Shown piece after piece: positions 2,531-26,546 of a stretch of DNA of 27,393 bases. Position numbers and translations under genes: made by a program. The number at the start of each line of letters is the position of its first letter. Position 1 is the stretch's first letter. Source of the DNA: an uncultured Lachnospiraceae bacterium (lineage in GTDB: Bacteria; Bacillota_A; Clostridia; Lachnospirales; Lachnospiraceae); assembly GCA_902801585.1 (NCBI GenBank), contig CADCIU010000036.1, positions 1 to 27,393 on the forward strand. The letters are read 5' to 3'. The notes beneath the pieces were generated by a model. It saw only the letters and a program-made list of their open reading frames with translations, was not told the origin of the DNA and ran no database searches.

Positions 2531-2671
2531 GGAGACAGGGGGACGGTTCTTCTGACAACTTTGTGACAAGGGGACGGTTCTTCTGACAACTTTCAGGCAC
2601 CTGCCTGAAAGTTGTCAGAAGAACCGTCCCCTTGTCACAAAAAGTTGTCAGTAGAACCGTCCCCTTGACAC
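2531..2671. repeat. Intergenic palindromic repeat cluster 1 (four units)
   Basis: Four units of the GGGACGGTTCT-core repeat fill the gap between two convergent genes. Unit 1 (2531-2559, +) is chimeric, with left arm GGAGACAG and right arm TGACAAC. Unit 2 (2561-2590, +) and unit 3 (2611-2640, -) are exact reverse complements. With the bases between them they form a perfect inverted repeat of 39-base arms around a two-base centre (2561-2640). Unit 4 (2644-2671, -) ends five bases before the stop codon of the C11 protease. On the minus strand unit 4 is followed by TTTTT (2639-2643), so it could weakly terminate that gene. Confidence 0.9.
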
Positions 2672-2676
2672 TAACA

Positions 2677-5214
2677 CTAGTAAGGAGTTCCGTAGAAGGT
2701 CGGATCCAGCTTCCACTCGACGATTTTGCCGTCAGTGACGTTTGCCCCGACCACGGGAGCATAGTAGGTGTCGCCGCGCTGGTCTGTAATCCGAGCGCTC
2801 ATAACATAGTACCCGTCTTGCAGCGCTTCACGCGTGATACCGGATTTTTCAGTGAAAGTGATTTCTTCGCCGTCTACAGGCTGACGACTGTTCGCATCGA
2901 GGTCAGTCACTGTGTAAACCGGGACGATCTTACTACCCACCTCAATTTGTTCATTCGACTTCGTGTTGTACATATAGTTGGCATCATAAACGGTGGTCGG
3001 AATCTTTCTGATGCCGGTAATGTTGAACACATCGGTGTCGTTGTCGCAGGAGAAAGTCAGGTAGTACATTTCGTCGTTGTATTTGACGGGCGCGCGGTAA
3101 TCCGTCGCGGTATCCGTGGAAGAAATGATCTCCACTTCGAGCGGTACACCGTCAAGGCAGATCCAGGTCCCCTCGAAACCGCAGACCATGCTGCCTTCTC
3201 CGTCCAGGTCCATATATTCATCCCGGCCGTAATTTGTCAAAAGGCCTTGCTCCCGGTCAAACCGATTGACTTCCAGATCGTAGTCCACCAGGAGATCCTG
3301 CAGTTTCTGGTCTACAGGGATCGAGAAGCCGGTGTCGGTAACGACAGGCTCGCTCTGTCCAAAGGACTCGAAGGGTTTCGTGCTGAGGACGACCGGTTCC
3401 GCGTCTGCGATTTCCTTTACTTTCTCTTTGAGTTCATCCGGAAGGCAGCCTGCCTGCTTGTAGTAGTAGAGAGCTGTAATGGCATCGTCTTCACTGATGT
3501 TGTAGACGTATTTGAGAAAATAGACCAACCCGTTCAAGCTGTTTATATTAACGGGGAGGTACACCGCGATGCCCTGCGAATCGCTCAAGCCGCCGTTCTG
3601 ACGGCTGTACAGAACTGACTCGCTGATCAGTTTTTTGACACGGCTGCATTCATCCGGGTAGTAGTCCCCCATATAGTCCACATAGCCGCCCAGATCAACG
3701 GTGCCAAACACATCGGAATAATCAGTTGAGTAGCGGGTCGAACGGATACCGCAGCGACCGATCTCGGACAGAACACTGATGTCTGTCACCGCGTCTTTGA
3801 GCTGTGCTTTGGCCAGATCGCTGTAAGCTGCGTACAGCTCGCGCGCCTTGGCCGCATCGATGACAGAGAATGTGACATTAAAGGAGTAAGGGACGCCTGC
3901 TTTTTGGAGATTTACGTTCTTTACCATATAAGAATCCGTATAGGAATCTGCGATCTCACGCGCCACTGCGGCGGGACTCATCGTAGGGTCGTCCGTCATA
4001 GCTCTGAGCCATGGCGTGTAATCCCATCCATCGCCGGGTTCATTCTCTTCGCTGAGTGCGTAGTAATCCGCAAAACCGTCCAGCGCATGGGTCACTTCCA
4101 GCGTCGACATGAGGCAGGCATCGAAGCCGATGATATCAAATGCCTTGTCTGCGCTGTCGGGATCATAGACGCTGTCCAGTGCCTGCCGGATATCGGCCAG
4201 GGTAAACTGATTGTTATAGATTGAATCATTTCCGTAGCCGAACGGGCCGCCGCCGTGGTTCCACAGGACCAAAATATTGTGATCCGCCGGATACTCATCC
4301 TTACAGAAGGTCAGAAAATCCGCCAGTGTCTGTGGCTCAGAACTCGGCTGCAGCTGCAGATCGGCGACCCGGCTGAACTGACCTGACTTGTACAGGAACC
4401 GCTGTGTCCGGTTCGGATTGATCATCTGGTTGCTCCAGCGTGTGGCGCCGCCTGTCTGGATGACGATCTGGATATTGTCCGACCAGGTCTCCGCGGTCAT
4501 TTCATCAATGTCAAGCGATGCGGAACCGGGGCCCGAAGCCACGATCACGTCTTTGGTTACAGGGTTGCTGGAAGCGACGGGCTTTTCCGGATAGAAAAAA
4601 TACGACGGAAGATCCAGACCGTTCCCGGCCAGCTCCTCGGTATATCGCTGGACATTGCTGCGCAACCTCTTTTCCTTTTCTCTTGCTATCTGTTCCTTTT
4701 GATCCGCTATCATAACTTCGGTGACATAGGAGAGATCGTTCTCATCCATGTCTTCCAGGTTGGAGCCGACCATATAGACGCAGATCGTCCAGGTATCATC
4801 TGCGCTCACCGGAGCGATCGCGTCAATCTTAGCCGCGCCTTCCTCATCGATGGGAGATTCCTCATAGATCAGGGGTTTATCCTCCTCAGACAGAGGCTTG
4901 TACATATCCTCGATTGAGAATTCTTCTTCCGGTTCTGTTTGATCAGCTTGATTCTCGTGATAAGAGCGAGTCAGATTCATGCCGGCGAAGACAAGTACAC
5001 CGATTGACACCAATACGGAGAGGATCAGCAGAGGCTTGCCGAAATACAATTCAAAGACCTTGACCAGATACGGGGCGTCTTTGTATTTGGCTTCCAGCTC
5101 CTCGCGCTCCTTTTGCTTCTGCGCTTCCCATCGCTGCGAGCGGGTGGTTTTCGCTTCCGAAGCCTCGGCGGGATTTGCACCGGCTTCCTGTGGGATATCG
5201 TTCCGATCTACCAT
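2677..5214 (-). CDS. Clostripain-family (C11) cysteine protease, membrane-anchored
   Basis: This 845-residue protein belongs to peptidase family C11, caspase-like cysteine peptidases that cleave after basic residues. The catalytic His320 lies in LVLWNHGGGPFGYG and the catalytic Cys367 in IIGFDACLMSTLE; the domain opens with WTICVYMVGSNLE near 142. The N-terminus (1-60) is charged and probably cytoplasmic. A single membrane segment follows at about 61-80 (PLLILSVLVSIGVLVFAGMN), with no cleavage site or lipobox, so it is most likely a signal-anchored protein with its protease domain outside. Residues about 560-845 are an unrecognised, probably beta-rich, C-terminal region. The start is fixed by AAGGAGA seven bases upstream of the ATG. 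No promoter is evident in the 172 bases before it, which are almost entirely repeats; it may be read through from the CPBP gene upstream. Clostripain-type self-cleavage is possible but cannot be judged here. Confidence 0.9.
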   Translation of the reverse strand: MVDRNDIPQEAGANPAEASEAKTTRSQRWEAQKQKEREELEAKYKDAPYLVKVFELYFGKPLLILSVLVSIGVLVFAGMNLTRSYHENQADQTEPEEEFSIEDMYKPLSEEDKPLIYEESPIDEEGAAKIDAIAPVSADDTWTICVYMVGSNLEDMDENDLSYVTEVMIADQKEQIAREKEKRLRSNVQRYTEELAGNGLDLPSYFFYPEKPVASSNPVTKDVIVASGPGSASLDIDEMTAETWSDNIQIVIQTGGATRWSNQMINPNRTQRFLYKSGQFSRVADLQLQPSSEPQTLADFLTFCKDEYPADHNILVLWNHGGGPFGYGNDSIYNNQFTLADIRQALDSVYDPDSADKAFDIIGFDACLMSTLEVTHALDGFADYYALSEENEPGDGWDYTPWLRAMTDDPTMSPAAVAREIADSYTDSYMVKNVNLQKAGVPYSFNVTFSVIDAAKARELYAAYSDLAKAQLKDAVTDISVLSEIGRCGIRSTRYSTDYSDVFGTVDLGGYVDYMGDYYPDECSRVKKLISESVLYSRQNGGLSDSQGIAVYLPVNINSLNGLVYFLKYVYNISEDDAITALYYYKQAGCLPDELKEKVKEIADAEPVVLSTKPFESFGQSEPVVTDTGFSIPVDQKLQDLLVDYDLEVNRFDREQGLLTNYGRDEYMDLDGEGSMVCGFEGTWICLDGVPLEVEIISSTDTATDYRAPVKYNDEMYYLTFSCDNDTDVFNITGIRKIPTTVYDANYMYNTKSNEQIEVGSKIVPVYTVTDLDANSRQPVDGEEITFTEKSGITREALQDGYYVMSARITDQRGDTYYAPVVGANVTDGKIVEWKLDPTFYGTPY

Positions 5215-5230
5215 GTCTTTCTCCTTTCTT

Positions 5231-5383
5231 GTATCACGGGGACGGTTCTACTGACAACTTTGTGTCGCTGGGACGGTTCTACTGACAACTTTGTGACACA
5301 GGGACGGTTCTACTGACACCAAAAGTTGTCAGTAGAACCGTCCCCATGACACAAAGTTGTCAGCAGAACCGTCCCCTTGACAC
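5231..5383. repeat. Intergenic palindromic repeat cluster 2 (five type-B units)
   Basis: Five type-B units fill the gap between the CPBP and C11 protease genes. Three are on the plus strand (about 5231-5258, 5261-5289, 5291-5319) and two on the minus strand (5325-5352, 5356-5383). The cores are intact. The base after the core varies (TTCTACTG or TTCTGCTG instead of TTCTTCTG), and so do the outer arms (TATCACG, TGTGTCGC, TGTGACAC, ATGACAC, TTGACAC). This is the densest B-only cluster. It leaves no room for an ordinary promoter, so the downstream protease gene is either read through from CPBP or started from within the repeats. Confidence 0.9.
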
Positions 5384-5386
5384 TAT

Positions 5387-6295
5387 TTATGCGGCATGTT
5401 TCTCATTCCAAGCTGCAAGGTCATCTTTTACAACTTCATCAAAGAGTCGGGTTTTCTTCTTGAGAATAAACAATACGAGCAAATACAATCCGTCTGTGAT
5501 CAATGTGTACAGGACCGTTGTAAAAGTAGGCGAGCCCCCGGAAACTCTTATTATATTCATTCCTATAAAGAAGAAGATAGGAACATTATTGGCAATGTGC
5601 TGTGCGGAGGACGCTTCGAGTCCCCTCGTGATATATGCAGCAAGGCCATAGAAGAAACCGGAAATCATAACGCTCAGGAAACCTGCAACATTATAAGTAT
5701 GAGAGAAACCAAAAACCAGTGCCTGTGCAACAACAGCGACCAGAGGAATCTTGATCCATGAACCGAGGGTCTGCATGAGAACACTGCGGAACAAGTATTC
5801 TTCAGCGATGCACTGCAAAGGCGCGAGGAGCAGAATGACCAGGAATCCCATAAGAGACAGACTGACATCTGTTTTGAACCCTGTAGCAAGGTAAATCTGC
5901 ACTATATTCGGTACGGAGCTAAAGAGAACCGCTATAGGCAGGCAGATGAAAAAGACCTTGAAGTTCCAGCCTCCTCTGGAAGAGGAATAAGATGAGAAAG
6001 GTCTGTCCCGGACAATCTTGCTTGCAATCCACAATGCAGGTATGGCTACAGCAAGACTGCCAAGTACAAAGATTGACAACCTGATATTATTGAAATCAAG
6101 AGTTTCCAGAGAGAGTTTGCCATCGTCGGGCTGACTGAAGGTTGTGCACAGCATCAATATGATCACGAAGGCAAAATAGAAAATACCGGTCAAAACAGAG
6201 AGAATGATCGGCTTGAACCATTTGTACGTGCAGAATTGTCTGCCGTAGGTGGGATACTCATGCTGCGAGTTGTTTGTTTCATTAATGTAATACAT
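5387..6295 (-). CDS. CPBP-family intramembrane metalloprotease (CAAX/Abi-type)
   Basis: This 302-residue polytopic membrane protein carries the CPBP (Abi, CAAX-like) signature. Glu165-Glu166 and Arg170 lie in CIAEEYLFR, His199 in FGFSHTYN, and His233/Asn237 in AQHIANN. These residues form the metal-dependent site of Rce1-like glutamyl peptidases. About seven hydrophobic segments are visible. In Firmicutes the family ranges from prenyl-protein or peptide processing to self-immunity against bacteriocins; no bacteriocin gene is apparent nearby, so the role here is open. The start is supported by AAAGGAGGA six bases upstream of the ATG. The C11 protease follows on the same strand after a repeat cluster, so two proteases may be co-transcribed. 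Sequence after the core (GGSPTFTTVLY) suggests a final helix pair and a charged C-terminal tail. Confidence 0.88.
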   Translation of the reverse strand: MYYINETNNSQHEYPTYGRQFCTYKWFKPIILSVLTGIFYFAFVIILMLCTTFSQPDDGKLSLETLDFNNIRLSIFVLGSLAVAIPALWIASKIVRDRPFSSYSSSRGGWNFKVFFICLPIAVLFSSVPNIVQIYLATGFKTDVSLSLMGFLVILLLAPLQCIAEEYLFRSVLMQTLGSWIKIPLVAVVAQALVFGFSHTYNVAGFLSVMISGFFYGLAAYITRGLEASSAQHIANNVPIFFFIGMNIIRVSGGSPTFTTVLYTLITDGLYLLVLFILKKKTRLFDEVVKDDLAAWNEKHAA

Positions 6296-6320
6296 TTTCT
6301 TCCTCCTTTTTTAATCAATT

Positions 6321-6326
6321 ATTATA
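6321..6326 (-). promoter_or_regulatory. Candidate -10 box for the CPBP gene
   Basis: On the minus strand this reads TATAAT, a perfect sigma-A -10 box, about 25 bases upstream of the start codon. The -35 region is poor: TTGCAG is present but with a 19-base spacer. The very short leader would start just before the ribosome binding site. Confidence 0.35.
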
Positions 6327-6466
6327 TAGCACCGGAATCTGAATGCTGCAACTTCTTTTATGATGTTTACATTACCGTTTGCAGACTGACACCATATGTC
6401 TTGTATAGTTTTTAGTATTGATTTTTGAACAATAGTTTTGCGCATTCCTATTTGATTTTTGGCGAT

Positions 6467-6495
6467 TTGCACATACAATAAGGGTAGGGTATTAC
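6467..6495 (+). promoter_or_regulatory. Candidate promoter of etfBA
   Basis: TTGCAC (6467-6472) and TATTAC (6490-6495) are separated by exactly 17 bases, 39 bases upstream of the etfB start. The -35 box matches consensus at three of six positions and the -10 at four. The spacing and position make it the best candidate in this AT-rich divergent region, but it is only moderate. Confidence 0.4.
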
Positions 6496-6534
6496 ACTAA
6501 TGTTCTGAAAGCAATTGGCAGAGGAGGTAATTGT

Positions 6535-7329
6535 ATGGATATTCTTGTATGTGTGAAACAGGTCCCGGACGATTCCGTAGAGATTCACCTTAATCCCAGC
6601 ACGATGAAGCCGGATCTGAGTAAGACTCTTCCTCAGGCAAACGCGTTTGACACGTATGCACTGGAGATGGCAGTTCGCTATTGTGAGGCGAACGGCGGAA
6701 CGGTCTCAGTAGTTTCCTTTGGGCCTAAGGATAATGAAACATCGCTCAGAAGCTGCCTGGCTGTTGGTGCCAAGAATGCTTTTCTGGTATCTGACGCAGG
6801 CTTGGAGGACGCAGATCCTTCCGTTACTGCAGCAGTGCTCGCAGCAGCGGTTCCGAAGATCGAAGAGGCACTGGGGGCGAAGTTCGGCCTCATCATGGTC
6901 GGTAAGGAATCCACTGACTATATCGACGGTGTTGTCGGCCCCATGATGGCTGAGAAGCTTGGACTTCCTTTTGTGACCAATATCGTAGCAGTAGAGGGTG
7001 AAGAAGGCGCTCTCACTTTGAAGAAAGAGCTGGATGCCGGCTATGACATCTTCAAGGCAGAAGGCGCAGCGATCGTAACGGTTTCCAAGCCGGATTATGA
7101 TCCCCGTTATCCCAGCATCAAGACCAAGCTGGCAGCCCGCAAGGCGAAGATCGGCGCGCTGACTGCAGCTGATCTGGGCTTAGATGACGCAGCAAAGGCA
7201 CCCAAGATTGAATATGTTTCCTTTGTCAATCCGCCTAAGAAGCAGGCAGGTGAGAAGATCAAAGAGGACGATGTGGAAGTGGCAGTTGCCAAGGCAATGG
7301 AGAAGCTGATCGCAGCCAAGGTCCTGTAA
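6535..7329 (+). CDS. etfB: Electron transfer flavoprotein, beta subunit
   Basis: EtfB pairs with EtfA to form the soluble flavoprotein that shuttles electrons between acyl-CoA-type dehydrogenases and other carriers. The 264 residues are the normal length and begin with the family-typical MDILVCVKQVPDD. The alpha/beta fold continues with VVSFGPKDNETSLRSCLAVGA, typical of the nucleotide-binding core. The loop that in butyrate-pathway EtfB usually reads close to AIDGDTAQVGP is here KESTDYIDGVVGP, closer to another EtfB clade, so the electron-bifurcating behaviour of the Bcd/Etf complex should not be assumed. The start is set by AGAGGAGGT six bases upstream. etfA follows after 126 bases. Two copies of GCCGGC (7371-7376, 7396-7401) in that gap could form a weak hairpin. 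No acyl-CoA dehydrogenase or hydroxyacid dehydrogenase gene is adjacent. Confidence 0.93.
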   Translation: MDILVCVKQVPDDSVEIHLNPSTMKPDLSKTLPQANAFDTYALEMAVRYCEANGGTVSVVSFGPKDNETSLRSCLAVGAKNAFLVSDAGLEDADPSVTAAVLAAAVPKIEEALGAKFGLIMVGKESTDYIDGVVGPMMAEKLGLPFVTNIVAVEGEEGALTLKKELDAGYDIFKAEGAAIVTVSKPDYDPRYPSIKTKLAARKAKIGALTAADLGLDDAAKAPKIEYVSFVNPPKKQAGEKIKEDDVEVAVAKAMEKLIAAKVL

Positions 7330-7455
7330 AAATATTGAAGTTGCTGAACTCTTGTCTGTATTTTGACTGTGCCGGCTTAATAATGAAAATACCGTGCCGG
7401 CGTTCCATTGTATCTATTGAGTTACGACATATATGGGATAGAGAAAGGAAGGCAT

Positions 7456-8373
7456 ATGAAAGCTTTAGTTTATATTGAGACCAAAGACGGTGCTCCCGTT
7501 GGTGGGAGTCTCGAACTGTTCGGTGCGGCTGCGTCCATCGGCGCAGAGGCAGAAGGAATCGTGATCGGCGATGAGGCAGTGGCGAAGGCAGCTGCAGACG
7601 CAGTAGGAGCATCGGTATCTTATGTAGAAGCGGATGACTGTGAAGACGTGATCACCGATGTGGTGGCGAAGGCAGCAGCAGGCGCTGACGTCGTATTTGT
7701 GGCAGCAACACCGACCGGCAAGGTTGTCGCACCCAGGATCGGTGCCCGTCTGGATGCAGGCGTTGTCAATGACATCACAGGAATCAATGCGGATGATGGT
7801 ATTTTGATCACAAGACCTGCTTTTGGCGGCAGCATACTCGAGCAGATCAAGATCAAGACACCCGTTGCAGTTGTCAGCGTGCGTCCGGGCTCTTTCGAGA
7901 AGCCGGCGGCTGCTGCAGGTACAGTCGCTAAGTCCGCGATCGAGGCGGCAGCAGCTAAGACGCAGCTGGTCGAGCACATCGCAGAGCAGGGTGAAGTCGT
8001 CAATATCGAGGATGCGGACATCATCGTGGCCGGCGGCCGTGGTATGGGCAGTGTGGAAGAATTTGCTAAGGTCATTGACCTGGCGGAGGCTCTCGGCGGT
8101 GCTGTTGGTGCCAGCCGTCCTGCAATCGAGGCGGGCTGGATTCCGCGTCAGCATCAGGTCGGTCAGTCCGGCAAGATCGTTGCGCCTAAGCTCTATGTGG
8201 TAGCGGGCGTGTCCGGCGCTACGCAGCACGTTGCAGGTATGTCCGGCAGCAAATATGTCCTTGCGATCAACACGGATGAGGACGCGCAGATCTTTGAAGT
8301 TGCTGACCTTGGAATCGTTGGTGATGCCAAGAAGATCCTGCCTTTGCTCACAGAGGCTGTGAAGAATAGATAA
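7456..8373 (+). CDS. etfA: Electron transfer flavoprotein, alpha subunit
   Basis: EtfA carries the FAD-binding C-terminal domain of the ETF heterodimer. The 305-residue protein shows the diagnostic FAD region near its end: GVSGATQHVAGMSGSKYVLA followed by INTDEDAQIFEVADLGIVGD. Upstream lies IIVAGGRGMGSVEEF and the arginine-containing SRPAIEAGWIPRQHQVGQSG. The N-terminal domain (about 1-180) is complete but there is no extra N-terminal ferredoxin domain, unlike the longer EtfA of some clostridia. I start at ATG 7456, where AAAGGAAGG lies just upstream and the protein begins MKALVYIETK; an in-frame start 16 codons earlier lacks family similarity. etfBA end at a strong terminator (8449-8478), so the pair is a compact two-gene transcription unit whose partner enzymes are encoded elsewhere. 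Confidence 0.94.
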   Translation: MKALVYIETKDGAPVGGSLELFGAAASIGAEAEGIVIGDEAVAKAAADAVGASVSYVEADDCEDVITDVVAKAAAGADVVFVAATPTGKVVAPRIGARLDAGVVNDITGINADDGILITRPAFGGSILEQIKIKTPVAVVSVRPGSFEKPAAAAGTVAKSAIEAAAAKTQLVEHIAEQGEVVNIEDADIIVAGGRGMGSVEEFAKVIDLAEALGGAVGASRPAIEAGWIPRQHQVGQSGKIVAPKLYVVAGVSGATQHVAGMSGSKYVLAINTDEDAQIFEVADLGIVGDAKKILPLLTEAVKNR

Positions 8374-8448
8374 TCTTTATCTTTTCACTAATATTGATAT
8401 CCTGCTCAGTTCCTAGGATGTTTGTTGAGACGGAATTTGTTAGTGATG

Positions 8449-8478
8449 GGGTGTCGCATGGGTGCGGCACCCTTTTTT
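8449..8478 (+). terminator. Intrinsic terminator after etfA
   Basis: A nine-base stem (GGGTGTCGC pairing with GCGGCACCC, one G-U pair) with a six-base loop is followed directly by TTTTTT. It lies 76 bases past the etfA stop and is the clearest rho-independent terminator on this side of the window. Confidence 0.85.
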
Positions 8479-8522
8479 GACGCGAACATCTGCAGAATAG
8501 TGAATTGCCGGCCATTAATCGC

Positions 8523-8528
8523 TATAAT
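8523..8528 (+). promoter_or_regulatory. Candidate -10 box for the AI-2E-family permease gene
   Basis: A perfect TATAAT lies 14 bases before the first repeat unit and about 100 bases before the start codon. No good -35 box is present at 16-18 bases spacing. If used, transcription would start near 8535 and the leader RNA would consist almost entirely of the two repeat units. Confidence 0.4.
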
Positions 8529-8541
8529 GAATATGGCTGAA

Positions 8542-8611
8542 GGAGACAGGGGACGGTTCTCTGTCTCCTCGAAGGAACTATTAAGGAGACAGAGAACCGT
8601 CCCCTGTCTCC
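8542..8611. repeat. Intergenic palindromic repeat cluster 3 (inverted pair of type-A units)
   Basis: Two perfect 27-base type-A units face each other, 8542-8568 (+) and 8585-8611 (-), separated by 16 bases. Each unit alone can fold through GGAGACAG/CTGTCTCC (8 bp, 11-base loop). Together they form a perfect inverted repeat that extends by one base on either side. The cluster ends 17 bases before the permease start codon, right before its ribosome binding site. Confidence 0.93.
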
Positions 8612-8628
8612 TAAAGAGGTAAGGAATT

Positions 8629-9744
8629 ATGAAACTTCCCAAATTTTCGAACAAGGATTGGTTTGGCGGTGCCGTCATAGTGTGCATCGGCGTCACGCTC
8701 TTCGTGCTGCTGAGCAATATCAGTTCGGTCATTGCCGTACTGGCCAGAATTATAGGATATTTCCGGCCGGTGATCCTGGGGGTCATCATTGCTTATATTA
8801 TCAGCCCTCTGGCAAAGCTGCTCTTTTACCGGGTTTTTCGGAGGATCAGGCACAGGAAACTGCGCTGGTATCTGTCTGTTTTTCTCTCTTTTGCATTGCT
8901 CATGGCAGCATTTTTCGTTTTGATCGGCCTGCTGCTGCCGCAGCTGATCAGAAGCATCGTTACGTTCTCGCAGAACTTTGACAGCTATACACAGTCGCTC
9001 AAACGGCTTATTGCGAGCAGCCCCCTGAAAACCATAATTGACGAGGAAAACATGGAGCTGCTCAATCAGAACGCAATGTCCGCAATCTCTGACTATGTAA
9101 AAGAAATTGCAAATAATGCGATATCGATCGCCGCGAGCGCGGGGAAGAACATCCTTTCCACTGTGATCGCGCTGATCCTTGCCGTGTATCTGCTGCTTGA
9201 CTTCAGGAATATCCTGGTCGGAGCAAGGAAGTTCATTTTCAAGGTCTTCCCTAAGAATGTCAGCATGGTTCTCTTGGATTTTGTCCTGCGCTGCGACACG
9301 ATCCTTGTGACCTATATAGCACAGAGTTTTATGGACGCTCTGATCATCGGTACGGTTAATGCGATTTTCATGGCGATCTGCAAAATGCCATATATCGGGC
9401 TGATCTCGGTGGTTGTCGGCGTGACCAACCTGATTCCGAATTTCGGCCCCGCCATCGGTGCAGTGATCGGTTCTTTCATACTTCTGCTGGCAGGTCCCGG
9501 AAACACAGTGTTGTTTCTCGTGTTCTGCCTGCTCCTGCAGAGTGTTGATGCCTATATTCTCAAACCCAGGCTGTTCTCGAGTGCACTTGGTGTTTCCGGT
9601 GTCTCGATCCTGATCTCCACCATCGTTCTCGGGAACATGTTCGGGATTCTGGGAGTGCTTCTCTCCATACCGGCGGCGGCGATCCTGAGTTTTGCTTACC
9701 ATGAATACTTTATGGTGTCAGCAGGCACTATAAAAAAACAGTAA
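8629..9744 (+). CDS. AI-2E family transporter (PF01594-type permease)
   Basis: This 371-residue polytopic membrane protein belongs to the AI-2E (PerM/YtvI) transporter family. Members have been linked to autoinducer-2 export, sodium-proton exchange and other efflux; the name does not prove the substrate. Two N-terminal helices (about 12-60) precede a basic loop (RVFRRIRHRKLRW) and a third helix. A long soluble segment of about 100 residues follows. The conserved C-terminal half contains GVTNLIPNFGPAIGAVIGS, then VDAYILKPRLFSSALGVSG and GNMFGILGVLLSIPAAAIL, which are family hallmarks. The start ATG lies eight bases after GAGGT. Upstream there is only the repeat pair and a candidate -10 box, so it is probably transcribed separately from etfBA. 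A remnant of another gene and the DUF554 gene follow on the same strand. Confidence 0.88.
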   Translation: MKLPKFSNKDWFGGAVIVCIGVTLFVLLSNISSVIAVLARIIGYFRPVILGVIIAYIISPLAKLLFYRVFRRIRHRKLRWYLSVFLSFALLMAAFFVLIGLLLPQLIRSIVTFSQNFDSYTQSLKRLIASSPLKTIIDEENMELLNQNAMSAISDYVKEIANNAISIAASAGKNILSTVIALILAVYLLLDFRNILVGARKFIFKVFPKNVSMVLLDFVLRCDTILVTYIAQSFMDALIIGTVNAIFMAICKMPYIGLISVVVGVTNLIPNFGPAIGAVIGSFILLLAGPGNTVLFLVFCLLLQSVDAYILKPRLFSSALGVSGVSILISTIVLGNMFGILGVLLSIPAAAILSFAYHEYFMVSAGTIKKQ

Positions 9745-9778
9745 ATTGATTCATGTTTCTTTTAGGGTAGGCACCATA

Positions 9779-9835
9779 AAGGAAGCATTGGATGATGTAA
9801 TCGATATCTTGGCCGATTTCGTGGCAGAGGAGTAA
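9779..9835 (+). pseudogene. Remnant of the small acidic protein gene (C-terminal 18 codons)
   Basis: This reads KEALDDVIDILADFVAEE followed by a stop, matching the end of the small acidic protein encoded at 637-819 (ETLDDTIDILADFVEEEE) at nearly every position, with mostly third-base differences at the DNA level. No start codon or N-terminal part is found upstream; the sequence before it is unrelated. The final codons GAGGAG still serve as the ribosome binding site for the GTG start of the DUF554 gene, much as the intact copy does for its own downstream gene. It looks like a partly deleted duplicate kept because it holds that signal. Confidence 0.7.
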
Positions 9836-9840
9836 AAAAC

Positions 9841-10560
9841 GTGAAATCTATGATCGGAATTATTGTGAATGTACTATCAGTCGGTTTAGGAGGTCTGGTT
9901 GGAGCGTTATGCGGGCGCAGACTGCCGGAGCATTTCCGAACCGGATTGAACGCGATTTTCGGCATCTGCGCGATGGGGATGGGAATATCATCCATCACGC
10001 TCATGGAAAACATGCCCGCAGTCATTATGGCCGTGATTCTTGGAACATCGGTCGGTCTGCTGATCCATCTGGGAGACAGAATCACTGCCTTCGGCAACCT
10101 GCTGCAGAAAGCCATGGAGAAGAAGGGCATCGGAGGTGATACTTTTGACATCTCCCTTTTTGTGACTGCATTTGTCTTATTCTGTACCAGCGGTACCGGG
10201 ATTTACGGGAGCCTGGATGCAGGAATGACCGGGAACGTGACGATCCTGATGTCGAAATCAGTCCTGGATTTCTTCACCGCTATGATCTTTGCATGCAGTC
10301 TGGGTCTTATTACCTGCGTGATCACGATCCCTCAGTTTCTGATTTTTTCCTGCCTGTTCCTGCTGGCCAAACTGATCTACCCGCTCACGACGCCTGTCAT
10401 GATCAACGACTTTAAGGCTTGCGGAGGATTTGTCCTTCTCGCAACAGGCTTTCGGATCGCAAAGATCAAAGAGTTTCCCATTGCAGACATGATTCCGGCT
10501 ATGATCCTTGTTATGCCGATCAGTGCGATCTGGGTCAATTACATTGCTCCATTACTGTGA
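9841..10560 (+). CDS. DUF554 (YdfK-like) membrane protein
   Basis: This 239-residue hydrophobic protein matches the DUF554/YdfK family of inner membrane proteins of unknown function. Its N-terminus (GIIVNVLSVGLGGLVGALCG) and the segment IFGICAMGMGISSITLMENM are typical. Six or seven hydrophobic segments with glycine-rich turns run through it, and it ends with MIPAMILVMPISAIWVNY. No enzymatic motif is seen. The start is a GTG eight bases after AGAGGAG, and that ribosome binding site lies within the remnant of a duplicated small gene. No terminator is evident after it; a degraded reading frame and another membrane protein gene follow. Confidence 0.85.
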   Translation: MKSMIGIIVNVLSVGLGGLVGALCGRRLPEHFRTGLNAIFGICAMGMGISSITLMENMPAVIMAVILGTSVGLLIHLGDRITAFGNLLQKAMEKKGIGGDTFDISLFVTAFVLFCTSGTGIYGSLDAGMTGNVTILMSKSVLDFFTAMIFACSLGLITCVITIPQFLIFSCLFLLAKLIYPLTTPVMINDFKACGGFVLLATGFRIAKIKEFPIADMIPAMILVMPISAIWVNYIAPLL

Positions 10561-10598
10561 GGTTCCTTAGAAGGTAAAGGACTACGGGGGCAGAATCC

Positions 10599-10834: not shown

Positions 10835-10879
10835 GGTTCTTTTTTTAGGGTGCCACCATAAGCAAACGGAGGTTTGTAC

Positions 10880-15198: not shown

Positions 15199-15313
15199 GG
15201 AGACAGGGGACGGTTCTCTGTCTCCTCGTGACAACACCTAAGAGTTCAAAAGTTGTCAGAAGAACCGTCCCCGTGACAACAAAATAGGAGACAGAGAACC
15301 GTCCCCTGTCTCC
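15199..15313. repeat. Intergenic palindromic repeat cluster 4 (A, B, A)
   Basis: Type A on the plus strand (15199-15225) and type A on the minus strand (15287-15313) enclose a type-B unit on the minus strand (15252-15280), whose arms GTTGTCA and TGACAAC are fully complementary. A further solitary arm GTGACAAC (15228-15235) lies between, so the middle GTTGTCA can pair with either side. The last unit ends 13 bases before the next start codon. The 62 bases 15252-15313 recur at 18196-18257 with one difference. Confidence 0.92.
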
Positions 15314-15326
15314 GGGGGTGTATTTT

Positions 15327-16295: not shown

Positions 16296-16305
16296 TGGTT
16301 GCGAA

Positions 16306-16445
16306 GGAGACAGGGGACGAAGGAGACAGGGGACGGTTCTCTGTCTCCATTAAAGAGACAGAAAGGAGACAGGGGACGGTTCTCTGTCTCCTTGTGACAC
16401 CATCCAAGGAATCAAAAGTTGTCAGAAGAACCGTCCCCGTGACAC
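16306..16445. repeat. Intergenic palindromic repeat cluster 5 (truncated A, A, A, B)
   Basis: A truncated type-A unit (16306-16319) stops after GGGGACG and is immediately followed by a complete type A (16322-16348, +). A lone arm AGAGACAG, a second complete type A (16365-16391, +), an arm GTGACACC (16394-16401) and a type-B unit on the minus strand (16418-16445) come next. The truncation followed by a fresh copy looks like a unit inserted into, or recombined with, an older one. Confidence 0.9.
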
Positions 16446-16467
16446 CACCGGAAGGAGAGAAACTGAA

Positions 16468-17088: not shown

Positions 17089-17115
17089 GGAGACAGAGAA
17101 CCGTCCCCTGTCTCC
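17089..17115 (-). repeat. Single type-A repeat unit
   Basis: One perfect 27-base type-A unit in minus orientation begins at the base right after the esterase stop codon. It ends ten bases before the ribosome binding site of the next gene. It is the only singleton in the window. Confidence 0.93.
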
Positions 17116-17136
17116 TTGGTGAAAGAAGGATAACTA

Positions 17137-18129: not shown

Positions 18130-18137
18130 TTTGAAGA

Positions 18138-18257
18138 GGAGACAGGGGAGGGCTCTTTGGGTGTCTCGGGGACGGTTCTTCTGACAACTTTGTGGGTTGT
18201 CAGAAGAACCGTCCCTGTGACAACAAAATAGGAGACAGAGAACCGTCCCCTGTCTCC
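18138..18257. repeat. Intergenic palindromic repeat cluster 6 (degenerate A, chimera, B, A)
   Basis: A degenerate type-A unit with a damaged core (18138-18167) runs into a chimeric unit on the plus strand (18162-18188) with left arm GTGTCTC and right arm TGACAAC. A type-B unit (18196-18224, -) with complementary GTTGTCA/TGACAAC arms and a type-A unit (18231-18257, -) follow. The last two and the bases between are a 61-of-62 match to 15252-15313. Confidence 0.9.
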
Positions 18258-18278
18258 CAGTCTCCAGGGAGAGTATTT

Positions 18279-18980: not shown

Positions 18981-19098
18981 GGAGACAGAGAACAGTCTCT
19001 CCCCTGTCACCTCGTCGAGAACCCTGTCTCCCCCAAAAAGGAGACAGAGAACCGTCCCCTGTCTCCCAAGTTGTCAGAAGAACCGTCCCCCTGACACC
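18981..19098. repeat. Intergenic palindromic repeat cluster 7 (degenerate A, fragment, A, B)
   Basis: A degenerate type-A unit starts at the base after the preceding stop (18981-19011). A type-A fragment (about 19015-19031), a perfect type-A unit in minus orientation (19040-19066) and a type-B unit in minus orientation (19070-19097) follow, the last reaching to within four bases of the kinase stop codon. The degenerate copies show that older units decay here. Confidence 0.85.
19035..19066 (-). terminator. Type-A repeat acting as likely terminator of the large kinase gene
   Basis: On the minus strand the type-A stem GGAGACAG/CTGTCTCC (8 bp, 11-base loop) is followed at once by TTTTT (19035-19039). 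This is the form of an intrinsic terminator, 35 bases past the kinase stop codon. Termination strength is inferred from structure only. Confidence 0.5.
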
Positions 19099-19100
19099 AC

Positions 19101-22100
19101 TTACATTTCCCAGTCCAGCTCATACACGAAGACTTCCTCGCTGCCTTCTCCACCGCCGATGGCAAGGAAGAGTCCGTCCGGCGTAACATCAATATCTTCC
19201 GGGACATTGAAATCGCCCCGGATTTCCACTTCTTCTTCACCTTCCACAAGCGGTGTGAGAGCCACCGTCGACGCGTCTTTGATGTAAGCGATCTGGTTTC
19301 CTGCCCCCGTGAATTTCAGCTTGTTTGAGAAAAGAACGAGTTCTTGTCGTTTGCGCGCGGGCCGCTTGATCGGATGGGGCAGCGGGTCTCTCGCTTCTCC
19401 CGTGACAAGGTCAACTGTGAGGTACTTGTATTCGTCATAGCGCTCCGAGTACTTTTTGATCTCCAGCAGAACAGCACTTTCATCCGGATAAACGGTGGCT
19501 TGTTCAACGAACATATTTATTTGGTCCGCAGGCATCTCCGTGAATTTGTGCTCCATTTTCGGCTCAACGACAATGTCAAAAGACCGAAGCTGCTTAAGTT
19601 CAGGCGCATCCCACAGGCTGAAATTCAAAACCAGGCGGTGTTTGGTGCTCTCTGTTCGCTGCCAGAGCAGGAAAAGAGTCCGGTTATCTCTCATAAAGTG
19701 AAGCCGGTTGCACATAATCTGACGTTCTGCGTACGAATACAGTTCTGTCGTCCGGACTTCCGAGTCCCTTTTCGGCGCAGACCCTTCCGGCGCACTCTTC
19801 TCTGAAGCCGCCTCTCGCCTGCACACTTTAAGTGTGCTCGTTGTCCGGCAATAATCCGGCCCCTGATCGATCAAGCCATCCACGATCGCAACAAGCTTTC
19901 CGTCCCCGGAGACGTCGACGTCTGTCCGCCAGGTAAAGCCCCCGACCCTGGGCAGAACCGCATCGGCAATCTCATTATTCGTGTCATATCTGTTCCTGTC
20001 CGGCCTGAATCGTCTTTCTTTGTTGTCATGAGGAGGGCGCACTTCCCCTTGATCTATATTCAGGATCTGAACATTGTTGCCCTGCCTGACATTAAATTTT
20101 TCAACTACAAAGAGTTCTTTGGCGTCGTCAGTAAAGAAAAGCTCACTCGTGTTGGCACGAAGGGTCTGCATTAGTGAAGCGCCCCTCAGTCTCACCTTCG
20201 TTTCTTTTGCCTTGATCTCATGGAGCAGGGTCCTGGCTCTGGGGTCGCTTCGAAGGCTGTCGTCCAGGCTCATCGCTTTTTTGACCAGGGAATCTGCTTC
20301 TGCCAGCTGTCCCTTCTGCATGGCCTCACGTCCATCAGCCAAAATACTGACAAACCAATCCTCCAGACTGATCTGTGCGGACGACGTTTGAATGCGAGCA
20401 AGTTCCCACTTTGCAACGTATTCAAAGGAAGGCATCTTCATTATGACAAGCGAATTCGAAGCGTATGTGATCATTGCGAGAAGGGTGCTGCCGGCTTTTA
20501 ATCCTCCGTCGATGCAGCGTCCTTTTGTCCGGATCGAGCGTCTGCAGCGGCCGTTATGCGGATCCAGGATTCTGACATAGCATTCGCCGATGGAATCGGA
20601 ACCGGCTGTGACTACCGCACTGTTACAGACAGAGAGCGAATCCGGGTAGTCAGGTGCTTCAAAATGCAGTGTTTTGGCTCCTGTGTGCAGATCATACAGA
20701 CTCAGACCTTTTCCATGCTTGAGCCAGATGCTGCTTTCATCTGACGACAGCGCTTGGGGGTTAAAGGTTTCTATGGGGTCTGTTGTAAAACTGATCACCG
20801 GTTCCCAATTTACAGCATCGTAGACCGTGATCTCACCATCTTCCCGCCCGCTTTTGAAACATTTGACAAAGCCTCCGTCTTTCAGGAAAAAGATCTTCGT
20901 CACGACTTTGTCCATTCTATATATCTGGCCATGTATTTCCTTTTCCCGAAGCAGAGTTTTATTATGGTTTTCCGTGTCCATGAGAAACATGCGATAGTAT
21001 TTATCGCTCGCTTTGCTGACAAAAAGCTGTGAGTATTTTTTGTAATGCGTATATACGGGATATTCTCCCCATTGGCCCAGGCTGTAAGAGCCTATGCGTC
21101 TGTCATCGTAGAGGTCGAAAATATGCAGATCGTGAAAATTGACGGTCGCAATTGTCGCATCAAACCAAGGACCTCCCCAAAAAACAGAGGATCCCTGCTG
21201 CAACCGCATATAGCTGTCCGTCCACATGGGCCTCTTATATCTCACGGAATACAGCATAGCGCCCTTTTCGCCGCACAGAATCTGATCTTCCTCCGGAGAT
21301 ATATCCATAAAGGGACTTTCATCAAATTCAATCCCGCTGAGTCTCTGGGTCTGCATTTCCAGGGCGGGCAGCTGCTGCGCGGCCTCTCGATCCTCTTCAT
21401 CCGTATTTTCATTTACGGCTTCCGGGTTGCCGCGCTCCAATTCCAGCCTGATCAGGAAGCGCTCATATTCTTCATCCGTCCCATGGACTTCCAGCATGTG
21501 CAGTGCCTGCAGATCCGTGATCTCGGCTCTGCGCCAGCGGAACAAAGCAAAGTTGTACAGGCTGAGTACGTGTTTAGGGTCTTTGGCCAGTGCCTTAGTC
21601 CAGCATGCGCGCGACTCCTCCGCCTGTCCAAGGTCCAGATAGCTCAGCGCCTTGTTGTTGAGGGAGTCCGGCGTGTCCGACGCTGCTTTCGGCGCGGGCC
21701 TCGGATACTCGCGGCCGACGGTCTCCCTGTAAATCTTCTCGAGCGCTGCCTCTATGACCCCGAATTCTCTGGGGCGCTGATCCGGCTCTCGCTCCATGCA
21801 ATGTGCGAGGAGATCCTGCAGTGCTTTGGGCATGGGATGCGTGGTGCACATGTCAAAATACTGCCTGCACCTTTCTCCGGCAGCCGGCCCGGTGAGGGGG
21901 GCGTCCTTGTCGGGGGCGGCCTTGCGCGTCCACGGCTTCGAGCCCAGGTACATCTCCAGCACGCTCACAGCCCAGCTGTAGATATCTGTGCGGCGGGAGA
22001 GAGGGAGCGATGCTGCCTGCTCAGGAGAGCAGTAAGCAGGTGTCTTTCCGCCGGAGGGAGACAGGATGGAGGCTTCCGGGTCAAAACTGCCGTTCTGCAA

Positions 22101-23027
22101 TATTTTGACATCAGTGTTTTCTTCTCCGGAAGCGAGGATGCTTCTGGCCCTGGCGATGCCGAAATCGCTGACTTTGGCTTCCCAGTCTGCGGAGAGGAGA
22201 AGGTTGGCCGGTTTCACATCCTGATGGATCAGTTTGTTGTCATGCGCGTAATGGAGGCCGCGCGCGAACTGAATGGCGATATCAAGCAGGCGCTCCTGCA
22301 CTTCTTCCGCGGTCCCCTCATAGAGGGTCCGGTCCTTGATATGCTTCTCCAGGTCACTGTTTTTCATCCACTCCGAGAAGATGGAGGGCACGCCGCCGAT
22401 CTCTCTGACGTAGTAGCAGGATACAATGTTGGGATGCAGGCCGAGATCGATCCAGGCATTGCATTCATGGATGAAATCGTCTTTGCGGGCCTGGCCGGCT
22501 TCCGCAAAATACTTCGGCTTGGGGCGCTTCATAGCCAGATCTGTGTTCCAGCTGTTGTGGTGCACTTTCCACACGCTGCCCATCCCGCCGGTGAAGGCAT
22601 CGGAGATCACGACGTAGGTGTCCAGAAGGGGGGTGTTCTTCCGGATCACTTCGGTGGAGATGGAGTCCCTTGGCGCGGCGCCGGGAGTGTTCCCGCGGCT
22701 GTCGCGGTCAGGGGTGTCGGTCTCTGACATCCGCTCGTGCTCGTCGATTTTGCTGATGGACTGGCTGATGCTGTCGTCCCCGAAGCTCATTAAATTCGGG
22801 AGGTCGTCGCCGGCCTCATATGGGAGGTCATCCTCATTGCCGCCGCTAAACGGGATGTCCTCGCCGTATGTGTCGGCACTGCCGTCCTCATATGGGAGGT
22901 CATCCTCATCACTGCCGTCAAACGGGATATCAACGCCGTAAATTTCGCCGTCTCCGGCCGAAACGTCCGCTGATGGCTTCCTCTCATCCGCTTTCTTTTT
23001 TCTTCTGAAAAAGTCGAAAAAGCTCAT
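19101..23027 (-). CDS. Ser/Thr protein kinase with TPR and propeller-like C-terminal region
   Basis: This 1308-residue soluble protein has an acidic N-terminus (1-130) with two 24-residue repeats (DIPF...EDDLPYE at 33 and 57). A eukaryotic-type kinase domain follows at about 136-432. The glycine-rich loop is DAFTGGMGSVW, the ATP lysine is Lys167 (LAMKRP), the catalytic loop is HQDVKPAN (Asp270) and the metal motif is DFG (288-290); SPEQA follows at 334-338. The first Gly of GxGxxG is Phe, and HRD is HQD. TPR-like helices lie at about 450-500 and again near 905-945. The rest (about 560-1308) has recurring DxSxDGxxxA-type strands (VSGDGKLVAIV; VTPDGLFLAIGGGE), pointing to beta-propeller folds. 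No membrane segment is seen, unlike PASTA kinases. Its ATG overlaps the aldo/keto reductase stop (TAATG), so it is translationally coupled. A close paralogue starts at 26564. Confidence 0.88.
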   Translation of the reverse strand: MSFFDFFRRKKKADERKPSADVSAGDGEIYGVDIPFDGSDEDDLPYEDGSADTYGEDIPFSGGNEDDLPYEAGDDLPNLMSFGDDSISQSISKIDEHERMSETDTPDRDSRGNTPGAAPRDSISTEVIRKNTPLLDTYVVISDAFTGGMGSVWKVHHNSWNTDLAMKRPKPKYFAEAGQARKDDFIHECNAWIDLGLHPNIVSCYYVREIGGVPSIFSEWMKNSDLEKHIKDRTLYEGTAEEVQERLLDIAIQFARGLHYAHDNKLIHQDVKPANLLLSADWEAKVSDFGIARARSILASGEENTDVKILQNGSFDPEASILSPSGGKTPAYCSPEQAASLPLSRRTDIYSWAVSVLEMYLGSKPWTRKAAPDKDAPLTGPAAGERCRQYFDMCTTHPMPKALQDLLAHCMEREPDQRPREFGVIEAALEKIYRETVGREYPRPAPKAASDTPDSLNNKALSYLDLGQAEESRACWTKALAKDPKHVLSLYNFALFRWRRAEITDLQALHMLEVHGTDEEYERFLIRLELERGNPEAVNENTDEEDREAAQQLPALEMQTQRLSGIEFDESPFMDISPEEDQILCGEKGAMLYSVRYKRPMWTDSYMRLQQGSSVFWGGPWFDATIATVNFHDLHIFDLYDDRRIGSYSLGQWGEYPVYTHYKKYSQLFVSKASDKYYRMFLMDTENHNKTLLREKEIHGQIYRMDKVVTKIFFLKDGGFVKCFKSGREDGEITVYDAVNWEPVISFTTDPIETFNPQALSSDESSIWLKHGKGLSLYDLHTGAKTLHFEAPDYPDSLSVCNSAVVTAGSDSIGECYVRILDPHNGRCRRSIRTKGRCIDGGLKAGSTLLAMITYASNSLVIMKMPSFEYVAKWELARIQTSSAQISLEDWFVSILADGREAMQKGQLAEADSLVKKAMSLDDSLRSDPRARTLLHEIKAKETKVRLRGASLMQTLRANTSELFFTDDAKELFVVEKFNVRQGNNVQILNIDQGEVRPPHDNKERRFRPDRNRYDTNNEIADAVLPRVGGFTWRTDVDVSGDGKLVAIVDGLIDQGPDYCRTTSTLKVCRREAASEKSAPEGSAPKRDSEVRTTELYSYAERQIMCNRLHFMRDNRTLFLLWQRTESTKHRLVLNFSLWDAPELKQLRSFDIVVEPKMEHKFTEMPADQINMFVEQATVYPDESAVLLEIKKYSERYDEYKYLTVDLVTGEARDPLPHPIKRPARKRQELVLFSNKLKFTGAGNQIAYIKDASTVALTPLVEGEEEVEIRGDFNVPEDIDVTPDGLFLAIGGGEGSEEVFVYELDWEM
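22814..22940 (-). repeat. In-frame 72-base tandem duplication in the kinase N-terminus
   Basis: Two copies of a 72-base unit begin at 22814 and 22886; the first 24 bases are identical, and similarity continues to about 22940. At the protein level this gives a 24-residue period in an acidic tail (DIPF, EDDLPYE). The length is a multiple of three, so the frame is kept. It looks like a recent slippage or recombination duplication of a probably disordered segment. Confidence 0.75.
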
Positions 23028-24311: not shown

Positions 24312-24414
24312 GGTGTCACGGGGACGGTTCTTTTGACAACTTTTAAGGCAGGGAGACAGAGAACCGTCCCCTGTCTCCATATGAAGGTGTCAAAAGAACC
24401 GTCCCCGTGACACC
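24312..24414. repeat. Intergenic palindromic repeat cluster 8 (B, A, B)
   Basis: A type-B unit on the plus strand (24312-24340), a perfect type-A unit on the minus strand (24352-24378) and a type-B unit on the minus strand (24386-24414) lie between two divergent genes. The last has fully complementary GGTGTCA/TGACACC arms. The outer B units face each other around the A unit, the reverse of the A-B-A nesting in cluster 4. The cluster ends about 20 bases before the ribosome binding site of the SGNH gene. Confidence 0.92.
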
Positions 24415-24444
24415 CGACACCCCCTCAAGAATTGGAGGATGATA

Positions 24445-25020
24445 ATGTCCGGAAAAAAAACTCTCAGTATTTTGTTCATAGGGAATAGTCACACATATTT
24501 TAACGATATGCCGCTGATGGTGCAGAGGCGGGCCAAGGAGGCAGGTTATGACTGTAGGGTCGTGATGATCGCGCATGGGGGCTGGTTTTTGGCACAGCAT
24601 GTGGAAGAGCCGGATGTTCGGTTCAATATCCTGTTCGGAGGGTATGACTATGTGGTCCTGCAGGAGCATGCGCATCCATTTGGACCGGTGGAGAAGTTCC
24701 GCGATGCGGCGGTGCAGCTCAATGAGTGGATCCGTGAGGCCGGGAGCACACCGGTCGTGTATGAGTGCTGGAGCAGGAAGGCGGAGCCGGAGATGCAGGC
24801 GAATATGAATGAGGCACACAGGCAGGCTGCGGAAGAGATCGGCGCGCTGCTTGCGCCGGTTGGCGAGTATTGGTGGGATTATCAGAAGAGCTGGCCTGAT
24901 CTGGAGATGTATTATAAGGATGGGGCGCATGCGTCGTCGGCAGGATCTGACTTTGCGGCTAAATATATATGGGAGACGATCTTTGCGGATTTGAGGGTGT
25001 CAAAAGAACCGTCCCTGTGA
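24445..25020 (+). CDS. SGNH-hydrolase-like protein
   Basis: This 191-residue cytoplasmic protein has the blocks of the SGNH/GDSL hydrolase fold, which covers esterases, acetyl-transfer enzymes and lipases. Block I is LFIGNSHTYFNDMP with the likely nucleophile Ser15. A middle block is YVVLQEHAHPFG, where the Gln-Glu pair resembles relatives of the DUF4886 type. Block V is DGAHASSAGSDFAA with Asp159 and His162 completing the triad. No signal peptide is seen. I take ATG 24445, six bases after GGAGG; ATG 24439 overlaps that site. The last six residues (SKEPSL) and the stop codon are encoded by a repeat unit (24996-25023), so the natural C-terminus has been changed. Near-identical repeat units lie on both sides of this gene in the same orientation. 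Confidence 0.82.
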   Translation: MSGKKTLSILFIGNSHTYFNDMPLMVQRRAKEAGYDCRVVMIAHGGWFLAQHVEEPDVRFNILFGGYDYVVLQEHAHPFGPVEKFRDAAVQLNEWIREAGSTPVVYECWSRKAEPEMQANMNEAHRQAAEEIGALLAPVGEYWWDYQKSWPDLEMYYKDGAHASSAGSDFAAKYIWETIFADLRVSKEPSL

Positions 25021-25069
25021 CACTTCCAAGGCAGGAAAAAAAGGAGACAGAGAACCGTCCCCTGTCTCC
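24996..25069. repeat. Intergenic palindromic repeat cluster 9 (B overlapping a gene end, A)
   Basis: A type-B unit on the minus strand (24996-25023) overlaps the last codons of the SGNH gene and contains its TGA stop. It differs from the unit at 24386-24414 by one base in the core-arm junction. A perfect type-A unit on the minus strand (25043-25069) follows and ends seven bases before the clpX stop codon. Confidence 0.92.
25036..25069 (-). terminator. Type-A repeat acting as likely clpX terminator
   Basis: Reading the minus strand from clpX, the type-A hairpin (8 bp stem GGAGACAG/CTGTCTCC, 11-base loop) is followed immediately by seven Ts (25036-25042). It starts six bases after the clpX stop, with no other terminator in sight. 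The form is that of an intrinsic terminator. Confidence 0.6.
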
Positions 25070-26323: not shown

Positions 26324-26447
26324 TTCCGCCTCCTTTCTATCTACATCTGCCGGGCCATGTTAAATTGGCAGATTTCGATGATTTCTGAATGGTTTTATAC
26401 TACAATAAGAAAAATAGCACTTTTGCAGAGGATATTCTATCAACCGC

Positions 26448-26456
26448 TGGTATAAA
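26448..26456 (+). promoter_or_regulatory. Extended -10 promoter candidate for the second kinase
   Basis: TGG-TATAAA fits an extended -10 element (TGnTATAAT with one mismatch). There is no good -35 box. Transcription would begin near 26463, just before the first repeat unit, so the leader would contain the whole repeat pair. Confidence 0.4.
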
Positions 26457-26467
26457 GGATGTCAGGA

Positions 26468-26546
26468 GGAGACAGGGGACGGTTCTCTGTCTCCTTTCAA
26501 GGCCGAAAAGAGACAGAGAACCGTCCCCTGTCTCCTCTCTGACACC
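26468..26546. repeat. Intergenic palindromic repeat cluster 10 (inverted pair of type A)
   Basis: A perfect type-A unit on the plus strand (26468-26494) faces one on the minus strand (26509-26535) with a single G-to-A change in its outer arm. A lone type-B arm (CTGACACC, about 26539-26546) follows, 17 bases before the kinase start. The arrangement matches cluster 3 before the AI-2E-family gene. Confidence 0.92.

Follow-up and report, generated by a model that had tools for sequence, protein, structure and literature searches.

What moves or maintains a short intergenic palindrome that keeps its centre and exchanges its flanks? The question is raised by a contig of 27,393 nucleotides from an uncultured Lachnospiraceae bacterium (assembly GCA_902801585.1, contig CADCIU010000036.1; the whole stretch is called the window here), in which short repeat units combine one fixed core with two kinds of arms. 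With high probability, these units are elements of the repetitive extragenic palindrome (REP) kind, mobilised by REP-associated tyrosine transposases (RAYTs) similar to those of subclass 2.1 and to TIRYT, and represent non-autonomous ends of HUH/Y1 transposons. The same hairpins flank RAYT genes in related genomes, their arms pair, the arm type agrees with the RAYT lineage, and units are present in one species and missing in another.

Repeat units in the window

The core GGGACGGTTCT was searched on both strands with up to one mismatch allowed. It was found 30 times, each time free of mismatches, against an expectation of 0.47 matches at the same tolerance (100 shuffles of the window). These 30 cores are grouped in 11 clusters and carry three combinations of arms: 13 units are A/A, 16 are B/B, and one is an A/B chimera. 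Type A arms read GGAGACAG on the 5' side and CTGTCTCC on the 3' side, while type B arms are of the TGTCA or TGACA type on the 5' side and of the TGACA type on the 3' side. A first-pass annotation, made from the letters of the window, had arrived at the same 30 intact cores, 11 places and 13 A units. Its 15 B units and two chimeras become 16 and one here, the second chimera (core 18169, 5' arm gtgtctcg) being classed as a decayed B unit. The further decayed units that it mentioned are present as remnants of arms without an intact core at 16306, 18138, and 18981.

Stem scores of the A units average 8.5. For the B units the mean is 4.75, with a score of at least 5 in 10 of 16; several of them pair poorly, as had been noted before. 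When an A arm is paired with a B arm, the mean score falls to 2.6. Both arms thus change together, since the own-arm scores of either type exceed this cross pairing. The two types are interleaved, in the order A-B-A at 15199-15313 and B-A-B at 24312-24414. In all eight clusters that hold both orientations, units on the plus strand precede those on the minus strand, and neighbouring units are therefore able to fold together; the inverted pair at 8542-8611 does so at −37.1 kcal/mol (z −12.8).

Intergenic placement, claimed for the whole set, holds for nine of the 11 clusters, which are located wholly between main open reading frames (ORFs). An overlap with a possible start of ORF 18192-18980 is seen for the cluster at 18169-18249, and one with the end of ORF 24439-25020 for the unit with core 25005; neither ORF has a Pfam match. 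No Rfam family matched the window. The tetranucleotides GTAG and GTGG did not occur regularly beside the arms, neither in the 30 contexts of the window, inspected by eye, nor in the commonest contexts of 208 units from relatives.

RAYT genes beside the hairpins

No transposase had been noticed in the window, and this stands for the 20 ORFs scanned, among which no Y1 transposase was found (smaller ORFs lay outside the scan). It does not extend to the relatives, where a search for a Y1-type transposase flanked by the same core, as the annotation had proposed, led to RAYT genes that adjoin these hairpins. Y1 transposase genes occur in eight of 12 genomes carrying A units. Genome G009 encodes three full-length RAYTs, and each gene is flanked by GGGACGGTTCT with an arm pair of its own, i.e., GGAGACAG/CTGTCTCC, CGTGACA/TGTCACG, and CAAGACAA/TTGTCTTG, respectively. 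Along this line, the three RAYT genes of G323 are accompanied by A, TTGTCA/TGACAA, and ATGAGTCA/TGACTCAT arms, and that genome also contains dispersed units with each of these arm kinds. A fourth transposase gene of G009, L129 (the same place as L165), is associated with other palindromes. They are near-perfect, of the type GGACACTGGGGACAGTCCCCAGTGTCC, located on both flanks of the gene, and fully Watson-Crick paired in their apical part.

The RAYT proteins are about 250 residues long, and 80 aligned relatives all retain the motifs N-H-x-H and Y...NP. A predicted structure (mean pLDDT 87.8) finds its best structural match in 4ER8, a REP transposase with bound REP hairpin (E 1.7e-7), and has C-terminal helices beyond the matched fold. 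A Pfam helix-turn-helix (HTH) domain in this tail was detected weakly, below the cut-off, in one of four proteins. All four match NCBIfam NF047646 (REP_Tyr_transpos) with 63.0-78.1 bits, which is under the curated cut-off of 80 bits. One relative, from Aristaeella lactis, is annotated by its sources as REP element-mobilizing transposase RayT.

RAYT searches gave 92 loci, one of these searches matching 66 of 392 genomes with loci taken from the best matches only. We removed 17 loci that could not be parsed by the motif rule (eight matching no RAYT of the set at 1e-8, and nine others) and eight protein repeats, and kept 67. Two of these were dropped for a short flank, and the flanks of the remaining 65 were searched for inverted repeats without reference to the core. 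A score of at least 20 was reached at 36 of 65 loci, 33 of which hold the GGGAC core. The maximum among 65 shuffles was 16; upstream and downstream flanks taken from different loci reached 20 in three of 65 cases, one of them a combination of two A-arm loci. At a threshold of 16, repeats were found at 45 of 65 loci, with the core in 37. Two loci, L239 and L244, belong to the same transposase group and show inverted repeats of another type, built around GACCTGGTC and devoid of the GGGAC core. The distant RAYT-like genes L211 and L208 are adjoined by GGTGCC..GGCACC inverted repeats, a different palindrome.

Core and gene also coincide at the level of genomes. Among 297 genomes of one order, eight have a RAYT at E ≤ 1e-45, eight have at least six cores, and seven have both (Fisher p 1.7e-12, with cut-offs set after seeing the data).

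Arm pairing and RAYT lineage

Pairing was assessed at 48 RAYT loci, using the nearest core that lay no more than 350 bp away and was oriented as expected, chosen regardless of pairing. A locus's own arms score at least 6 in 30 of 48 cases, compared to 7.5% of 2256 pairs with swapped arms, and their mean of 6.38 lies above the permutation maximum of 4.17. The covariation proposed from the window is thereby extended to the relatives.

The RAYT tree, of a quick kind, comprises 64 proteins, three shorter than 185 residues having been excluded. All seven RAYTs seen with A arms fall into one eight-member branch (SH-aLRT 97), whose eighth member, L130, has an upstream flank of only 50 bp. The RAYT of Aristaeella lactis is assigned to this A branch as well. 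Mapping the A-arm label on the tree requires two changes, compared to a mean of 6.8 after shuffling, and none of 500 shuffles needed as few. Other arms are confined to small branches as well. GGAAC arms are found in L145, L146, L164, L166, and L168, with L129 (inside this branch) and L233 beside them lacking such arms; CTAACC arms are common to L147 and L148, and GTGACA arms to L135 and L170.

As a prediction test of the arm match, dispersed copies were fetched from genomes with other RAYTs. CTAACC/CTCACC-type arms, as beside the genome's own RAYT, were present in 7 of 13 dispersed copies in G215 and in both copies in G307. In G255, 10 of 14 copies have the GGAAC/GTTCC arms that accompany its RAYT, and two of the 10 are changed on both sides to the compensatory GGTAC/GTACC. 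G235, in which no RAYT was seen, has B arms in 6 of 11 dispersed copies. The core is therefore not alone in corresponding to the protein, as the arms, too, follow the RAYT lineage.

The core as an apical stem-loop

The core was compared in 49 cognate hairpins, i.e., loci with a best hairpin score of at least 5, a selection that favours pairing of the arms but not of the apical bases. In these hairpins it consists of GGGAC, two bases (mostly GG), and usually TYYY. GGGA pairs with TYYY around a triloop, with four standard pairs in 39 of 49 hairpins and three in six, and the notion of the core as a plain loop was dropped on this account. As had been proposed, the core varies less than the arms. 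It is not strictly constant, however, and differs between RAYTs. The commonest variants, TTCT, TTCC, TCCT, TCTT, and TCCC, differ by C/T changes that keep the pairs with G. Near the core, 36 of 49 hairpins have CA 5' of it and 41 of 49 have TG 3' of it. We infer recognition of the core by a protein.

The first and third apical pairs are usually G-T (38 and 32 of 49, respectively), which turn into A-C on the opposite strand and thus hint at a choice of strand. The strand carrying the core has a mean folding energy of −6.74 kcal/mol versus −6.35 kcal/mol for the other strand; it folds better in 40 of 49 hairpins and worse in six, and it is also the better one for 24 of the 30 window units. Since the gain in energy is small, this does not settle the strand.

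A separate RAYT branch (L151-L156 and L160) has repeats of the form GGGGACGGGGCAA, GGGGACGGGCTTA, or GGGGACGGAGGAA, where pairing of the kind seen in the main group is lost from the 3' half of the core.

Distribution among Clostridia

The exact 27-base A unit was matched in bacterial genome contigs whose titles refer to Clostridia groups, with at least 120 stretches containing it. Among the matches listed, the titles name Lachnospiraceae, Eubacterium, Mogibacterium, Oscillospiraceae, Blautia, and other Clostridia, and many of the contigs derive from goat, sheep, or roe deer gut. The 12 A-unit genomes hold between 8 and 189 cores each, compared to 0-2 matches of the reversed pattern. A B-like pattern, GGGACGGTTCTNNTGACA, is present in 7 of 35 genomes, of which 34 were selected because they carry an exact A unit and one, G286, on account of its RAYT. 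The M13 peptidase encoded in the window is 32-50% identical to its three matches among 396 genomes of one order, and the few matches of window proteins that bear a name point to Eubacteriales, Candidatus Pelethousia, or Oscillospiraceae. A scan of IMG/VR yielded four viral contigs (L001-L004) with a B-type pattern and none with the A pattern. Among the papers listed by literature searches, whose coverage mostly excluded subscription journals, no account of this hairpin family in Clostridia was seen, and of 39 papers containing one of four core strings, the 20 listed include no title on bacterial repeats.

Mobile units or host elements

Differences between related species bear on whether the units move. 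In Mogibacterium, an A unit of L022 (7247) directly follows a stop codon, and the same junction is empty in L288 and L292. A unit of L029 (2797) is missing at the same place in L308, L309, and L311, and a diverged copy is retained in L307. Both comparisons lie within one genus. At two more shared sites, one species has two cores and the other has one. Therefore, units have been gained or lost between species. An A unit at L022 5505-5531 is ambiguous; it lies within an ORF and apparently in frame, where the sequence varies among relatives. GGAG was considered as an insertion target; it fits the unit at 7247 of L022, not that at 2797 of L029.

Alternatively, the units could be RNA elements that selection maintains in the host, such as intrinsic terminators or hairpins that stabilise mRNA, and their adjacency to RAYT genes a coincidence. 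A scan of positions 1-20000 detected terminator-like A units at 15287-15313 and 18229-18259, the inverted pair folds strongly, and several units come immediately after an ORF. However, a T run follows few units, the arm type follows the RAYT tree, RAYT genes are flanked above the level of the controls, and units of one species are missing at the same site in others. We therefore consider this explanation improbable and rejected terminators as a general account; units of mobile origin could still serve as terminators in a secondary role.

Even less probable is that the units are immobile operators, read through their core by a DNA-binding protein of the host. The 11-base core is nearly invariant and intergenic, as would suit an operator, but compensating changes of the arms indicate a folded strand, RAYT genes have units on either side, and the presence and number of units differ between related species. 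It is very improbable, too, that the elements ending in these units are of the ordinary IS200 kind (TnpA subclass 1.1) and not RAYTs: IS200-type genes do occur in some of the same genomes, but seven of eight such loci have no core, the eighth (L128, a fragment at a contig edge) has one about 770 bp away, and it is the RAYT loci that hold the core in paired inverted repeats; IS200 was consequently discarded as the mover.

Proposed mechanism

On the reading as REP-like elements mobilised by RAYTs, each unit would form one hairpin, with the arms as outer stem and GGGA-CGG-TYYY as apical stem-loop. A RAYT, some 250 residues long and ending in a helical, HTH-like tail, would bind its own version of this hairpin in single-stranded form, cleave next to it, and insert it at another place, probably while the DNA is being replicated. 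Many RAYTs would have the apical part in common, and the outer arms would be lineage-specific, both sides changing together. A genome that once hosted two such RAYTs would end up with two arm sets and one core, as in the window, whose A and B units would accordingly derive from two RAYTs. That the RAYT moves the units, the strand it uses, and the site of the cut are features that we infer.

Several observations weigh against this account. The first group concerns the repeats around RAYT genes. All RAYT loci are best matches to one query and not a random sample; 20 of 65 score below 16, and eight of the 45 repeats at or above this score are without GGGAC. Ten of the 49 cognate hairpins lack the complete set of four apical pairs, and the borders of the two present/absent sites disagree, with no common target. 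The second group concerns the distribution of the genes. B arms are linked to a RAYT by two loci, L214 and L228, and the units of L214 read GGGACGGTTCC; no RAYT like L214 was seen in the B-carrying genomes G235, G322, and G011. An A-branch RAYT is present in only 8 of the 35 genomes, with none seen in G001, G002, G004, and G011 despite 71-189 cores, and the window itself is devoid of a RAYT among its scanned ORFs. In G091, one of the seven genomes with both gene and cores, three inspected cores are without such arms. Unit-rich genomes without the gene may reflect either repeats that outlive their RAYT or a gene that was missed; as most of the genomes are metagenome assemblies, loss and assembly gap cannot be told apart.

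Arrangement of the units along the window

Near the 5' end of the window, the chimeric unit (2531..2559, plus strand), composed of an A 5' arm and a B 3' arm, comes immediately after ORF 1385-2530. It is followed by two type B units with barely pairing arms, both of score 2, at 2562..2590 (plus) and 2611..2639 (minus), and by a third with a score of 5 at 2644..2672 (minus). Five further B units form the next group, three of them on the plus strand (5230..5258, 5261..5289, and 5292..5320, with scores of 3, 4, and 3, respectively) and two on the minus strand (5325..5353 and 5356..5384, both with a score of 5). Two A units at 8542..8568 (plus) and 8585..8611 (minus) make up the inverted pair that folds end to end.

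Between 15199 and 15313, a B unit with a score of 7 (15252..15280, minus) is flanked by A units at 15199..15225 (plus) and 15287..15313 (minus). The A unit at 16322..16348 (plus) has the arm remnant at 16306 close upstream; a second A unit at 16365..16391 (plus) and a B unit with a score of 5 at 16418..16446 (minus) follow. A lone A unit (17089..17115, minus) comes immediately after ORF 16468-17088. The B unit with the decayed 5' arm (18160..18188, plus) is succeeded on the minus strand by a B unit with a score of 7 (18196..18224) and an A unit (18231..18257), and two more minus-strand units, A at 19040..19066 and B with a score of 6 at 19070..19098, adjoin the region 19101-23027. The latter encodes a protein kinase of 1308 residues with TPR, whose two closest relatives are 95 and 74% identical over the full length.

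Downstream, an A unit (24352..24378, minus) is flanked by two B units, one with a score of 5 at 24312..24340 (plus) and one with GGTGTCA/TGACACC arms and a score of 7 at 24386..24414 (minus). The B unit overlapping the end of ORF 24439-25020 (24996..25024, minus) has a score of 6 and is accompanied by an A unit at 25043..25069 (minus). The last two units are of type A, at 26468..26494 (plus) and, with one changed arm base, at 26509..26535 (minus).

Relation to known systems

The class named before as the nearest one, palindromic repeats that are linked to RAYTs and lack a regular GTAG head, is supported by our results. Two groups of Y1 transposases come closest. The group 1 described by Bertels et al. 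in 2017 reportedly equals TnpA-Y1 subclass 2.1. Members of this subclass, as characterised by Quentin et al. (2018, PMC6006769), have about 238 residues, NH.H and Y...NP motifs, and a C-terminal HTH. Judged by protein length, N-H-x-H, Y...NP, and an HTH-like tail alone, the Clostridia RAYTs resemble them. Their survey states that REP-like sequences next to genes of subclass 2.1 were found neither computationally, with a program that demanded GTAG or GTGG and loops of 2 to 5 nt, nor manually. In contrast, a cognate hairpin was found here beside RAYT genes.

The same survey places 20 of the 26 TIRYT genes of Di Nocera et al. in subclass 2.1 (PMC6006769). According to Di Nocera et al. (2013, PMC3733652), TIRYT genes are Y1 transposase genes between inverted repeats, many of which share GGGGWSAS, and the repeats of TIRtrons, some of them self-complementary, occur as moderately abundant families in dimers and clusters. 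The Clostridia loci share the position of the transposase gene between terminal inverted repeats (TIRs; at least a score of 20 at the 36 of 65 loci). They differ, in a comparison made by description, in their constant apical stem-loop, their lineage-specific arms, and their hosts, and in a core that mostly reads GGGGACGG, one base off GGGGWSAS; GGGGACAG is found in few, e.g., L129 and L229.

With REPs and REPINs headed by GTAG, such as the E. coli REPtron, the units have in common that they are short palindromes in many copies and inverted pairs, that the RAYT gene is bounded by the same repeat (here in relatives, not in the window), and that repeat and enzyme co-evolve. For other RAYTs, a biochemical study describes co-evolution with their own REPs and key positions in a loop or bulge (PMC8266576). 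Here, however, the foot lacks GTAG and GTGG, the constant motif occupies the tip, and the stem varies between RAYTs. The CGTC REPs, for which Di Nocera et al. give an unpaired CGTC end, a stem of 8-9 bp, a loop of 4-5 nt, and no linked transposase (PMC3733652), show one likeness, as CGTC is part of the core's reverse complement. In our units, CGTC lies within the hairpin tip and a RAYT is linked, and by this structure and this link the CGTC REPs are ruled out as the family.

The Clostridia family stands between TIRtrons and REPs, with a TIR-like position, a REP-like hairpin and spread, and no GTAG. We see an even chance that the RAYT subclass reported to be without REPs does have them, with a near-universal apical part for docking and the outer stem as a lineage-specific address. 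Such a modular recognition code for a single-strand transposase is suggested because sibling RAYTs of one genome keep separate arm pairs and one tip. It would provide a partner sequence for a RAYT subclass without REPs in a broad survey, and would link TIR-type repeats to REPs via one hairpin design. If true, the code would be readable and testable by swapping arms between hairpins, and the naturally arm-swapped variants would allow direct tests of REP recognition. For the organisms themselves, the RAYT account would explain an abundant repeat of gut Clostridia.

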